From NCBI GenBank assembly GCA_036504215.1, contig DASXVO010000033.1, positions 62,001 to 126,000 on the forward strand: a stretch of DNA of 64,000 nucleotides, in the 5' to 3' direction. The translations under genes were made by a program, and so were the position numbers. Within the stretch, counting starts at the first letter, position 1; each line of letters opens with the position of its first letter. The DNA is from Vicinamibacterales bacterium (GTDB lineage: Bacteria; Acidobacteriota; Vicinamibacteria; Vicinamibacterales; Fen-181). Below the pieces are notes generated by a model. It searched no databases, had not been told where the DNA came from, and saw only the letters and a list, made by a program, of their open reading frames with translations. This document shows positions 57,321 through 62,221 of this stretch, piece after piece.

Positions 57321-57618
57321 GGTATTGTGTGGAGCCTGCGCGTGTCGGGACGACCGCGCAAGCAATCACACGACGGACTTGATCGGGTACACGTCGCGGG
57401 CGGATCGTCGCGTGTTGGACGCTGGTTCCTCAACCATGGACGTTTTGTATAGCACAACTCCTGACCGCTGTCATGCGGAGCGAGCTGGGGTCGGTGACGT
57501 TTCTGTATGCAAACCCCTCCTCGTGTCGTTCGCCGGGCTTGCCCGGGCCGGGCGCGAAGCGTGACAGTGTCGATCCTGCCGGAGGGGTGGCCGTAGCGAG
57601 GCAAGGGGGGGACACGTC
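57321..57618. promoter_or_regulatory. Divergent promoter region of rhamnosidase and rhamnose isomerase
   Basis: 298 bases separate the two start codons and must carry both promoters. A minus-strand TATACA box is visible at 57446-57451 (reading TTGTGC then TATACAAAA). No operator palindrome was recognised, in contrast to the pduS/ackA region. Confidence 0.4.
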
Positions 57619-58933: not shown

Positions 58934-59494
58934 CTACATGAACTCGCGGAACAGTTCCTTCGCGGGCCCCGGGATCACGGCCTTGCCGACCAGGATCCCC
59001 TCCTCGGATGCCACCGCGGCACCAGCCGCGACGGCGGCTTCGACGCTCGCGATGTCGCCCGTCATCAACACGAAGCCCTTGCCGCCAATCGCCATCGCCA
59101 GGTGGACTCGGAAGAGCACCACATCGGCGGCCTTGGCCGCCGCGTCGGCAACTTCCACGATGCTCGACGCGGAGAAGGTCTCGATGAGCCCAAGCGCACT
59201 GACCCGCTCCGGCGCCGCATCAACCGACAAGCCGATCGCGGGGAACACACTCGGGTGCACCTTGGTGACGACGCGCCGTTCGATGAGCGACCCGCCGCAG
59301 AGCGCCGCTCCCGCGTCCACAGAGGATTGCACGGAGGCCACCTCACCGCCGATGACGATGAGGTACTTCCCTGAGCAGATGGTCCGCGCGAGCAGCAATT
59401 CCACGCTCGCCGCTTTGAGCATCGCATCCTGTGCCACGTAGCCAACGGCGATGGAGGCGACCTCGACCAGTCCCACCGACCTCAGCTTCGACAC
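58934..59494 (-). CDS. pduT: BMC-T microcompartment shell protein, PduT-like
   Basis: 186 residues from the GTG at 59494, preceded by GGGAGG. Two tandem BMC domains (about 5-92 and 93-186). In the first, Cys40 in the pore loop TICSGKYLIVIGG aligns with the Cys of PduT that holds a [4Fe-4S] cluster at the trimer centre; the second pore loop reads MAIGGKGF. Such trimers may pass electrons through the shell. It follows the PduS-like gene by 19 bases, and the pair is co-transcribed. Length is typical of PduT (184). Confidence 0.92.
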   Translation of the reverse strand: MSKLRSVGLVEVASIAVGYVAQDAMLKAASVELLLARTICSGKYLIVIGGEVASVQSSVDAGAALCGGSLIERRVVTKVHPSVFPAIGLSVDAAPERVSALGLIETFSASSIVEVADAAAKAADVVLFRVHLAMAIGGKGFVLMTGDIASVEAAVAAGAAVASEEGILVGKAVIPGPAKELFREFM

Positions 59495-59513
59495 GCCAGC
59501 CTCCCTTTCACCC

Positions 59514-60854
59514 TCACGCCTCAATCACCACGGCGTCGCCAACCGAACACACGACGCCCGCGATGCTGGCGTGAATCCGGGCTCCGAGCGCACCGGCCGC
59601 CGGAGCCGCGACGAGATCACTCACCGAGACACGATCGCCCGGTCGAACAACGGCCACGGCAGGGGCGCCGGCGTGCTGCTTGAGCGGCAGCACCACGCGG
59701 CGTGGTGCGACGGCGAGATCCTCGAGCGGCCCGACGTTGTCGAAGTCGGTCAGGCCGAGCCTCGACATCAGGCGGCGCATCGGCACACGCCGGTCCGCCG
59801 CCAGCGGATGCGGCACCACGGATTCTGCCGTTCCGGACCAGGACAGCCCTCTCTCACGTGCGACCGGCTTCGCCGCCGCGCACACGTTCTTGGGGTCGAG
59901 GTTCTCCGGGCACGAATAGAGGCTGCACAGGTTGCACTCGCAGCAGTAGAGCGTGCTCGCCACCATCGACGTCGGGCTCGGGGAGAATCCCAGTGACTGC
60001 ATCGCCCGGTGCGGCTCGATCGGATGGCCCATGAGGTAGCGCGGGCAAAGGTCCGTGCAGAACCGACACTGGTCGCACGCAGACCGGCCGATTCGTGCGA
60101 TTTGGCGCGGGGTCGCCCTGTAGCGGCCTATGAGTGGGTGCGCGGTGGGCAGGACGATGAGGCCGCCGAGGGTCTTGGTGACGACTTCATCGAGCCCGGA
60201 GGCGAGCCGGCCCATCATCACGCCTCCCATCAGCACGTCGAATTCAGCCACGGTGGCCCCGCCAGCCCGCGCGAGGACCGCACCGATGCTCATCCCGACC
60301 GGGACGCGCAGGGTGACCGGCGCCCGAACCGCGCCGCCAACCGTCACGTATTTGTGGGTGACCGGCTCATTCAGGCCGACGTTGACGAGCGTCTCGACAT
60401 TGGCGACGACCGTGTCGACATCCTTGGGCAATCCGCCAGGCGGGATGACGCGACCGACAGCGTCGTAAACCAGCAGGAACTCGTCGCCGGCCGGGTAGCT
60501 GTCGCGAAGCGGCAGGATGCGCACACCCGACGGAAGCCTGGGCGCCAATCCGGACATCACGTCCGAGTACTTCTCCTTGATCCCGATGATCCCGATGCGA
60601 GCGCCGACCAGCCCCATCGCCGCCGAGAGCCCGCGCAGCATCGGTTCCGCGAGATGGGAGAGGAGCTCTCTGTCCTTGTGCAGCAGTGGCTCGCACTCGG
60701 CGCCATTGACGATCATCGTCGAGACGCGGGTCGCCAACTTGGCGGCGGTGGGAAATCCGCCGCCGCCGGCGCCGACGACGCCCAGTTCGGCGATACGTTC
60801 GAGCGACGTGGCCACGGGTGGAACTGGGGACGGCCCGCTGGATCTATTTGGCAT
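59514..60854 (-). CDS. pduS: PduS-like Fe-S flavoprotein (RnfC/Nqo1-type)
   Basis: 446 residues. Glycine-rich nucleotide region GVVGAGGGGFPTAAKL (25-40), NGAECEPLLHKDREL (50-64), an SLBB domain near 165-235, then two [4Fe-4S] motifs (C260, C263, C266, C270; C304/305, C307, C310, C315) and a C-terminal barrel. PduS reduces cobalamin for B12-dependent diol dehydratases; in other BMCs related proteins recycle NADH. The start at 60854 (ATG) is preferred to the GTG at 60866. It pairs with the PduT-like shell protein. Confidence 0.9.
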   Translation of the reverse strand: MPNRSSGPSPVPPVATSLERIAELGVVGAGGGGFPTAAKLATRVSTMIVNGAECEPLLHKDRELLSHLAEPMLRGLSAAMGLVGARIGIIGIKEKYSDVMSGLAPRLPSGVRILPLRDSYPAGDEFLLVYDAVGRVIPPGGLPKDVDTVVANVETLVNVGLNEPVTHKYVTVGGAVRAPVTLRVPVGMSIGAVLARAGGATVAEFDVLMGGVMMGRLASGLDEVVTKTLGGLIVLPTAHPLIGRYRATPRQIARIGRSACDQCRFCTDLCPRYLMGHPIEPHRAMQSLGFSPSPTSMVASTLYCCECNLCSLYSCPENLDPKNVCAAAKPVARERGLSWSGTAESVVPHPLAADRRVPMRRLMSRLGLTDFDNVGPLEDLAVAPRRVVLPLKQHAGAPAVAVVRPGDRVSVSDLVAAPAAGALGARIHASIAGVVCSVGDAVVIEA

Positions 60855-60929
60855 CTCTATGACCACTTTCTATCATATTTGGTCATTGTTGTGACCGATA
60901 GAATAGATAATCTGTTTGACATCTGTCAA
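60855..60929. promoter_or_regulatory. Operator-like inverted repeats upstream of pduS
   Basis: ATGACCA at 60859-60865 and TGGTCAT at 60880-60886 form an inverted repeat with centres 21 bases apart (two helical turns). GGTCA-N6... then TTGTTG-TGACC continues at 60881-60895. A separate 14-base palindrome TTGACATCTGTCAA lies at 60916-60929. The region is AT-rich compared with its surroundings. The TGACA/TGTCA half-site recurs next to ackA, so one repressor probably controls both sides. Confidence 0.55.
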
Positions 60930-61031
60930 TCAGGTTCGTATCATCATGCCGATCGCAGGTTGGGAACAGTGAACAGATAAGGAAATAACACGGTATCAGC
61001 CTCCATCGCTGGACGGCGCCAAAGACGTCAT

Positions 61032-61050
61032 TATCTGTCACTATCTGTCA
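61032..61050 (+). promoter_or_regulatory. Tandem TATCTGTCA operator-like repeats before ackA
   Basis: TATCTGTCA occurs at 61032-61040 and 61042-61050, a 10-base period (one helical turn), just before the ackA start at 61055. The sequence occupies the place of the Shine-Dalgarno, which is not otherwise visible. A third ATCTGTCA sits within the palindrome at 60916-60929. Confidence 0.6.
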
Positions 61051-61054
61051 TTGC

Positions 61055-62221
61055 ATGAACATCCTGGTCGCCAACATCGGGAGCACATCGTTCAAGTACC
61101 GACTGTACGCGGTCGAGCGCGACAGCGTCCTCGCCCAGGGGCGGATTGAACGCATTGGACAGCCCGGGAGCGCCTGTCCGGACTATGAGGCGGCCATCGA
61201 GCAGTGCGTCGCCGGGATCGCAGGCCAGGGCAAGCCGCTGCGACAGCTGGCCGAGCTGGCCGCCATCGGTTTCAAGGCCGTGCATGCGGGCCCGGTGAGC
61301 GGCGCGCGCCTCATCGATGCCGAGGTGCTGGCGGCCATGGACGAGTTCGCGTTCTTCGCGCCCGCGCACAATCCCCCTTACGTCGCCGCGATGCGGTCGT
61401 TCCAGCGGGCGCTCCCCGACGTGCCGCTCGTGGCAGTGTTCGAAACCGCGTTCTTCGACCGGCTCGACGAGGCCACCACCACCTATGCGGTCCCGCTGGG
61501 GTGGCGCGACGAGCTCGGCGTGCGCCGGTACGGATTCCACGGCGCCAGCCATCGCGCCGCCAGCGAGCACACCCGCTCAACGCTCGGCGCGGGCCTCCGC
61601 CACATCTCCTGTCATCTCGGCGGCAGCTCGAGTGTGGCGGCCATTCGCGATGGCGTCGCCATCGACACCAGCTTCGGCATCTCGCCGCAGTCGGGCCTGC
61701 CGCAGAACAATCGCTGCGGTGATCTCGACGTGTTCGCCGCCCTCTTCGTGATGAAGAAGCGCGGTCTCGGTCCGGACGAGATGGCGCGGGTGCTCGCCAC
61801 CGAGTCCGGGTTGGCCGGCCTCAGCGGCCTCAGCGGCGACATCCGCGATCTCGATGACGCCGCCGCGGGCGGCCACGCGCCTGCGCGGCTCGCGCTCGAT
61901 GTGTTCGTGCACGCGGTCCGCCACTACGTGGGAGCCTTCCTCGTGGAGCTGGGCGGCGTCGATGTCGTGACCTTCTCCGGCGGGATCGGCGAGAACAGCC
62001 CGGCGATTCGCGCGGACGTCTGCGCCGGTCTCGCCGGGCTCGGCATCGCTCTCGACCACGGCCTCAACCAGGCGGCCCGCGGAGAGGCCAGGATTTCCTC
62101 GGCCGCCTCGCGTGTGGCCGTCCTCATCGTGCCGGCCGACGAAGAACGGATCGTGGCGCGCGCCACCGCCGACGTCGTGGCGCGGAGGATCGGCGTGTCG
62201 GGAGGCAGGGATGGCCACTGA
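61055..62221 (+). CDS. Acetate/propionate kinase family protein of the microcompartment operon
   Basis: 388 residues with the ASKHA fold: NIGSTSFKYRLY at 7-18, HISCHLGGSSSVAAIRDG at 183-200, NNRCGDLD (Arg220) and FSGGIGENSPAI. Usual substrate-binding and catalytic positions differ: the Arg of HRVVHGG is Lys74 here and the Asp of VFDTAFH is Glu130. It probably makes ATP from an acyl-phosphate generated by PduL (acetyl-, propionyl- or lactoyl-type). PduW is the Pdu equivalent. The start has no ribosome-binding site. Its end overlaps pduL by 11 bases. Confidence 0.85.
   Translation: MNILVANIGSTSFKYRLYAVERDSVLAQGRIERIGQPGSACPDYEAAIEQCVAGIAGQGKPLRQLAELAAIGFKAVHAGPVSGARLIDAEVLAAMDEFAFFAPAHNPPYVAAMRSFQRALPDVPLVAVFETAFFDRLDEATTTYAVPLGWRDELGVRRYGFHGASHRAASEHTRSTLGAGLRHISCHLGGSSSVAAIRDGVAIDTSFGISPQSGLPQNNRCGDLDVFAALFVMKKRGLGPDEMARVLATESGLAGLSGLSGDIRDLDDAAAGGHAPARLALDVFVHAVRHYVGAFLVELGGVDVVTFSGGIGENSPAIRADVCAGLAGLGIALDHGLNQAARGEARISSAASRVAVLIVPADEERIVARATADVVARRIGVSGGRDGH

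Follow-up and report, generated by a model that had tools for sequence, protein, structure and literature searches.

A conserved 10-bp direct repeat between divergent microcompartment operons of an acidobacterium, and its candidate DeoR-family repressor

Described systems and the microcompartment locus

The PVM-like loci are defined by a class II aldolase encoded with shell genes, accompanied in most of them by a DeoR-family regulator, for which the available text of the defining study gives no operator (PMC4207490). The operators of the DeoR-family RhaR regulators are described, in the accessible part of their source, as imperfect direct repeats with a periodicity of 10-11 bp; the RhaR of Chloroflexus aurantiacus bound its tandem-repeat site by EMSA and was released by L-rhamnulose, but not by L-rhamnose (PMC3870299). 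In Planctopirus, a pvmA-promoter construct was inducible by rhamnose and its authors think that PvmA is a repressor, but the available text names no operator for the pvm regulator/promoter pair (the word "operator" has 0 occurrences in it; PMC11958385). Our literature search, with most subscription journals outside its coverage, found no published operator for fucose/rhamnose microcompartments.

We analysed a window of 64,000 nucleotides (the whole stretch presented here; 66.7% GC) in which two divergent operons are separated by a spacer of 200 bases (Table 1). On the plus strand, the genes for acetate kinase, PduL, and two BMC-domain proteins are followed, beyond the window, by those for EutN, aldehyde dehydrogenase, EutN, class II aldolase, and DeoR. 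On the minus strand, we set the start of pduS at ATG 60854 because the protein of the relative L028 begins with a similar sequence. The shell set comprises two BMC-P (EutN_CcmL), two single-domain BMC genes, and one BMC-T. The gene order, including DeoR, is maintained in most of the relatives that have the locus. The DeoR gene is followed, on its own strand, by a large gene for a MASE1-PAS hybrid histidine kinase (L001:15342-19148, outside the window).

By its class II aldolase (PF00596), shell genes, and DeoR regulator, the locus is classed as a predicted PVM-like (L-fucose/L-rhamnose) microcompartment. The aldolase and the regulator are common to it and to the PVM-like loci, including that of Candidatus Solibacter, and an acetate kinase is a further feature of the PVM type; here, unlike in the PVM-like loci as they appear in the available text, pduS and BMC-T form a separate divergent operon (PMC4207490). 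The ACI microcompartment of Acidobacteria, which in the accessible description has a BMC-P triplet, a hydroxyacid dehydrogenase, and the AldDH on a satellite locus (PMC8217296), was considered and set aside: the locus has two BMC-P and the AldDH in its main operon. No lactate/malate dehydrogenase was found among the locus proteins scanned.

Table 1. Features of the spacer and its flanking genes (window coordinates, except for the DeoR regulator)
Feature	Position	Strand	Remarks
BMC-T shell protein, two BMC domains	58934..59524	-	second gene of pduS operon
pduS-like flavo-iron-sulfur protein	59514..60854	-	first gene of divergent operon
Spacer	60855-61054		between ATG of pduS and start of ackA
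O1 extension: weaker third unit TCTATGACCA	reaches 60856	+	
O1: two 10-bp direct-repeat units CTTTCTATCA TATTTGGTCA	60866..60885	+	beside pduS start
Predicted pduS promoter TTGACA-18-TATTCT	60900..60929	-	10/12; palindrome 60916-60929 common to both promoters
Palindrome TTGACATCTGTCAA	60916..60929	.	read as two overlapping -35 hexamers, opposite strands (consensus scan)
Predicted ackA promoter TTGACA-17-TATCAT	60916..60944	+	11/12 (consensus scan)
O2: three 10-bp direct-repeat units AAAGACGTCA TTATCTGTCA CTATCTGTCA	61021..61050	+	ends 4 bases before ackA ATG
ackA-type acetate/propionate kinase	61055..62221	+	first gene of main microcompartment operon
DeoR regulator	contig C33:129489-130244		last gene of ackA operon; 3.5 kb beyond window

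Repeat arrays and predicted promoters in the spacer

The first-pass annotation described the spacer as AT-rich, which is borne out (56.5% AT vs 33% for the window), and proposed as operator an octamer, ATCTGTCA, at 60921, 61033, and 61043. All three copies are present on the plus strand and the octamer is absent from the rest of the 64-kb window. Their number alone is weak evidence, because 9 of 100 shuffles reach three (1.17 expected), but all of them sit within 200 bases. At the scale of the 5.92-Mb genome, the pattern ATCTGTN{4,5}ATCTGT has exactly two matches, both in the spacer (none for the reversed control pattern), and TATCTGTCA has five, two of them in the spacer and three within long ORFs whose positional GC resembles that of coding sequence.

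We nevertheless rejected the octamer as the unit of the operator: neither strand of L019 or L020, which are the regions that hold the two nearest orthologues, contains ATCTGT, and the spacer of L019 (identical to that of L028) retains 10-bp repeats despite this absence. As we read these sequences, conservation lies not in ATCTGTCA but in a looser 10-bp direct repeat with TCA at its end, and the octamer is one local version of it. The three octamers are where the first-pass annotation placed them, but its list overlooked the O1 array and the third O2 unit, AAAGACGTCA (61021-61030), and the octamer at 60921 is out of 10-bp register with both O1 and O2.

The repeats are arranged in two arrays, O1 and O2, in the same orientation on the plus strand. 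Scored with a matrix from other lineages (the window and L028 being excluded), O2 is the best three-unit site of the window, with 28.5 bits, and O1 (taken as 60856-60885) the second best, with 18.2; the next best in the 64 kb outside the spacer has 8.25. The pattern RTCAN6RTCAN6RTCA has two matches in the genome, O2 and one in overlapping long ORFs on contig C52. The matrix scan of the 64 kb found no such array at the rhamnose genes of the window (alpha-L-rhamnosidase, rhaT, rhamnulokinase, and rhaI), and the switch thus seems local to the two microcompartment operons. Control of the alpha-L-rhamnosidase/rhaI spacer (57366-57618) by the same sites was rejected, as it has no 10-bp array, and these genes seem to be controlled in some other way. 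This spacer has a near-palindrome, TGACCGCTGTCA, at 57462-57473.

Two further elements had been proposed as inverted repeats. The palindrome TTGACATCTGTCAA is present, but it is best taken for two overlapping -35 hexamers that belong to putative divergent promoters. We rejected it as the main operator because the aligned stretch of the relatives is a conserved -35-like region, TTGACTCTGAC. An element TTGACT(C/T)TGA or TTGGCTCTGA occurs in 12 of the 18 spacers scanned, a similar one, TTGACTCTG, is visible in L074, L079, and L081, and other forms are found in the window, L028, and L044. The scan of the spacer gave a third promoter match, TTGGCA-17-TATCAT, where shuffles give 0.6 expected matches; forward and reverse matches overlap in many relatives, and matches of this kind provide weak evidence. 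The -35 stretch of L030 and L031 can also be read as a 10-bp repeat on the reverse strand, so the palindrome may be a third, weaker operator. The GGTCA/TGACC inverted repeat exists too, at 60881-60896, which puts it about 27 bases upstream from the ATG of pduS and not over it as had been claimed.

A separate stretch at 60979-60995, AAGGAAATAACACGGTA, matches 16 of 17 bases of AAGGAAATGACACGGTA in the otherwise different spacer of L032. The pattern of its 15-base core is found once in the genome, and it may be a chance match or a second site.

The candidate regulator and the proposed switch

The first-pass annotation ascribed the control of both operons to one unknown repressor. The common operator region stands, and it is conserved, but the repressor need not be unknown, because a DeoR-family protein, which is most likely the repressor, is encoded at the end of the ackA operon, by a gene whose start codon shares bases with the stop codon of the aldolase gene (ATGA). 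We assign this protein to the family by its predicted domains, an N-terminal HTH_DeoR (PF08220, 8.8e-16) and a C-terminal DeoRC (PF00455, 1.3e-39). It passes the curated cut-off of none of the named NCBIfam models of the family (GlpR, AgaR, SrlR, UlaR, DeoR, FucR, and others); the best model is NF041397, with 156.9 bits against a cut-off of 300. The search of solved structures by sequence returned a single match, to its C-terminal part only (7l6l, 1.4e-06). The genome holds two DeoRC proteins (E up to 0.001), one of which is this one; the 7 kb around the gene of the other (L096) have no such site, the best scoring -1.3 bits.

The repeats and their placement, the conservation of their register, and the order of the genes lead us to infer that the spacer is a control region shared by the two operons, to which the operon's own DeoR would bind and repress both until released by a sugar intermediate, a reading that we consider highly probable. 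The DeoR repressor of the ackA-pduL-shell-AldDH-aldolase operon would occupy both arrays: O1 directly follows the predicted pduS promoter, and O2 sits in the interval from the predicted ackA promoter to the start codon of ackA. Without substrate, it would shut both divergent operons and its own gene. The releasing intermediate would be L-rhamnulose, L-fuculose, or their 1-phosphates, a proposal made because L-rhamnulose released the C. aurantiacus RhaR from its tandem-repeat operator (PMC3870299, available text). In several Acidobacteriaceae O2 touches the -10 region. In the window it lies about 75 bases beyond the predicted -10, and in L028 it is likewise at some distance on the downstream side of the predicted promoter. 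Simple occlusion of the promoter would therefore fail to account for control in these two; in the window, O2 would more likely act as a roadblock or through an O1-O2 loop.

This kind of switch is already known, because DeoR-family rhamnose repressors use direct repeats of 10-11 bp (PMC3870299, accessible part); on these comparisons, it is a new lineage-specific case of DeoR-type direct-repeat control and not a new mechanism. As far as that text goes, the C. aurantiacus RhaR is likewise a DeoR-family protein of a rhamnose catabolic operon, with tandem direct repeats of about 10-11-bp periodicity and a local regulon. Its repeat consensus is TCGAAA and not a 10-mer ending in TCA, and the account includes no microcompartment, whereas here two arrays flank divergent promoters (PMC3870299). 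The PvmA of Planctopirus limnophila is also a DeoR-family regulator inside an L-rhamnose/L-fucose microcompartment cluster; the two are likened by family and context, and PvmA is the first gene of its cluster in the available text where the DeoR gene is the last here (PMC11958385). The literature that we found for fucose/rhamnose microcompartments reports a DeoR-family gene and no operator, and the arrays provide a specific candidate operator with a named regulator. This would aid the prediction of when acidobacteria build these organelles, and the spacer offers a compact divergent promoter part.

The repeats could instead bind a regulator encoded elsewhere, such as a global sugar or catabolite regulator, since the link from DeoR to the sites is inferred and the search for regulators in the genome covered DeoRC proteins only. 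We regard this as improbable. The arrays sit upstream of operons holding this DeoR gene even where the gene order differs (L042, L043, and L044), the array is local, with O2 the only intergenic one of the two three-unit matches in the genome, and the DeoR-family rhamnose regulators in the available text of PMC3870299 typically have direct repeats at 10-11 bp.

Going further with the operon's own DeoR, one can picture a single protein bridging O1 and O2 in one loop around the overlapping divergent promoters, across the Acidobacteriota, with a repeat that drifts along with the recognition helix. We hold this extended version to be rather unlikely. If true, the loop would close the shell/electron-transfer genes and the core operon in one complex, and the loci with an SES helix and mostly (A/G)TCA and those with an SRA helix and TTCA would be a natural series for the DeoR recognition code. 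In the SES-helix loci, the base before TCA is G in 17, A in 13, T in 8, and C in 1 of 39 units from 14 loci (purine in 30/39); in the SRA-helix loci (L046, L047, and L094, three closely related loci), it is T in 9/9 O2 units. The correlation is weakened by L042, which has an SES helix and yet several TTCA units. A coevolution of the helix and this base is a weak lead, with few independent cases.

Conservation of the repeat in relatives

We searched for the DeoR protein in the order (162 genomes, 7 matched at 1e-20, of which 3, source genome included, have at least 77% identity), in the phylum (396 genomes, 8 at 1e-35), in one family (398 genomes, 26 at 1e-50), and in a collection of genome contigs (16 loci). 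Among named relatives, the nearest are MAGs of acidobacteria, one of them labelled Vicinamibacterales; a planctomycete origin, which the type of locus had suggested, was rejected on this ground. Among the 43 loci mapped (20 + 23), 20 have a match to ackA. We excluded three that repeat the same contigs, judging by matching positions or identities (L076, L080, and L082), and L044 for its different gene order. The remaining 16 and the window make 17 spacers; L040 lacks a match to pduS and its spacer is the ackA upstream region only.

Read by eye, the spacers contain 10-mers ending in TCA in head-to-tail register. In 11 of the 17, TCA recurs at lag 10 in 30 pairs, where 300 dinucleotide shuffles gave 2.1 on average and 7 at most. 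All 17 spacers together give 52 such pairs, the next value among 64 trinucleotides and lags 5-25 being 18, for TCA at lag 20. This lag-10 peak falls within the 10-11-bp direct-repeat periodicity by which the accessible text defines RhaR-type operators (PMC3870299). We then ranked sites with leave-group-out matrices, in which the last three columns are fixed by construction, the units having been chosen for TCA at lag 10. The best three-unit site is within the spacer in 17/17 loci of 10-64 kb each; since loci of the same family are not independent, these count as five lineage groups and not as 17 cases. Conservation upstream of orthologous operons, on which the first-pass annotation had made its motif depend, is therefore found for the 10-bp TCA repeat.

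In most relatives, a few bases at most separate the last TCA from the ackA ATG, and no Shine-Dalgarno-like purine run is present in the last 30 bases before this ATG in the window, where the first-pass annotation had noted a missing ribosome-binding site. The repeats could act in RNA or as translational elements, O2 lying in the ackA leader at the place expected of a ribosome-binding site. This is very improbable: in L032, L034, and L038, some 130-160 bases separate the array from the start downstream of it, which means that closeness to the ATG is not conserved, and O1, with the same plus orientation, would have an antisense orientation in the leader of pduS. That the repeats reflect chance, or the common ancestry of an AT-rich spacer, is less credible still, for even if two-unit runs are frequent among shuffled sequences (13-389 per 1000, depending on the locus) and sister loci resemble one another in sequence, runs of at least three units occur in 14/17 spacers (at least two in 17/17) against about 0.1 expected from the sum of the per-locus shuffle rates, the O2 sequences diverge widely between lineages (CTATCTGTCA, TAATCGGTCA, and TAACTGTTCA) while the register stays constant, and the leave-group-out ranking placed the best site in every spacer.

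The matrix scan also covered 17 loci or regions outside the training set, L096 among them. In L030, L042, L043, and L044, the best site is just upstream of the first gene of the operon; L033, L035, L036, and L037, whose contigs break off inside the operon, have none at that place. In eight loci (L045, L086-L090, L093, and L095), where the DeoR relative has a helix of the SKSS/SRSS type and a microcompartment is mostly absent, the DeoR/aldolase spacer shows no convincing array. Two of these eight have moderate sites near the DeoR gene: one of 16.7 bits about 250 bases before it in L093, and one of 19.5 bits just after it in L087. The aldolase-DeoR operon of L042 gave no match to any BMC gene of the set searched, and upstream of it lies the longest array seen, five consecutive 10-bp TCA units (L042:9035-9084).
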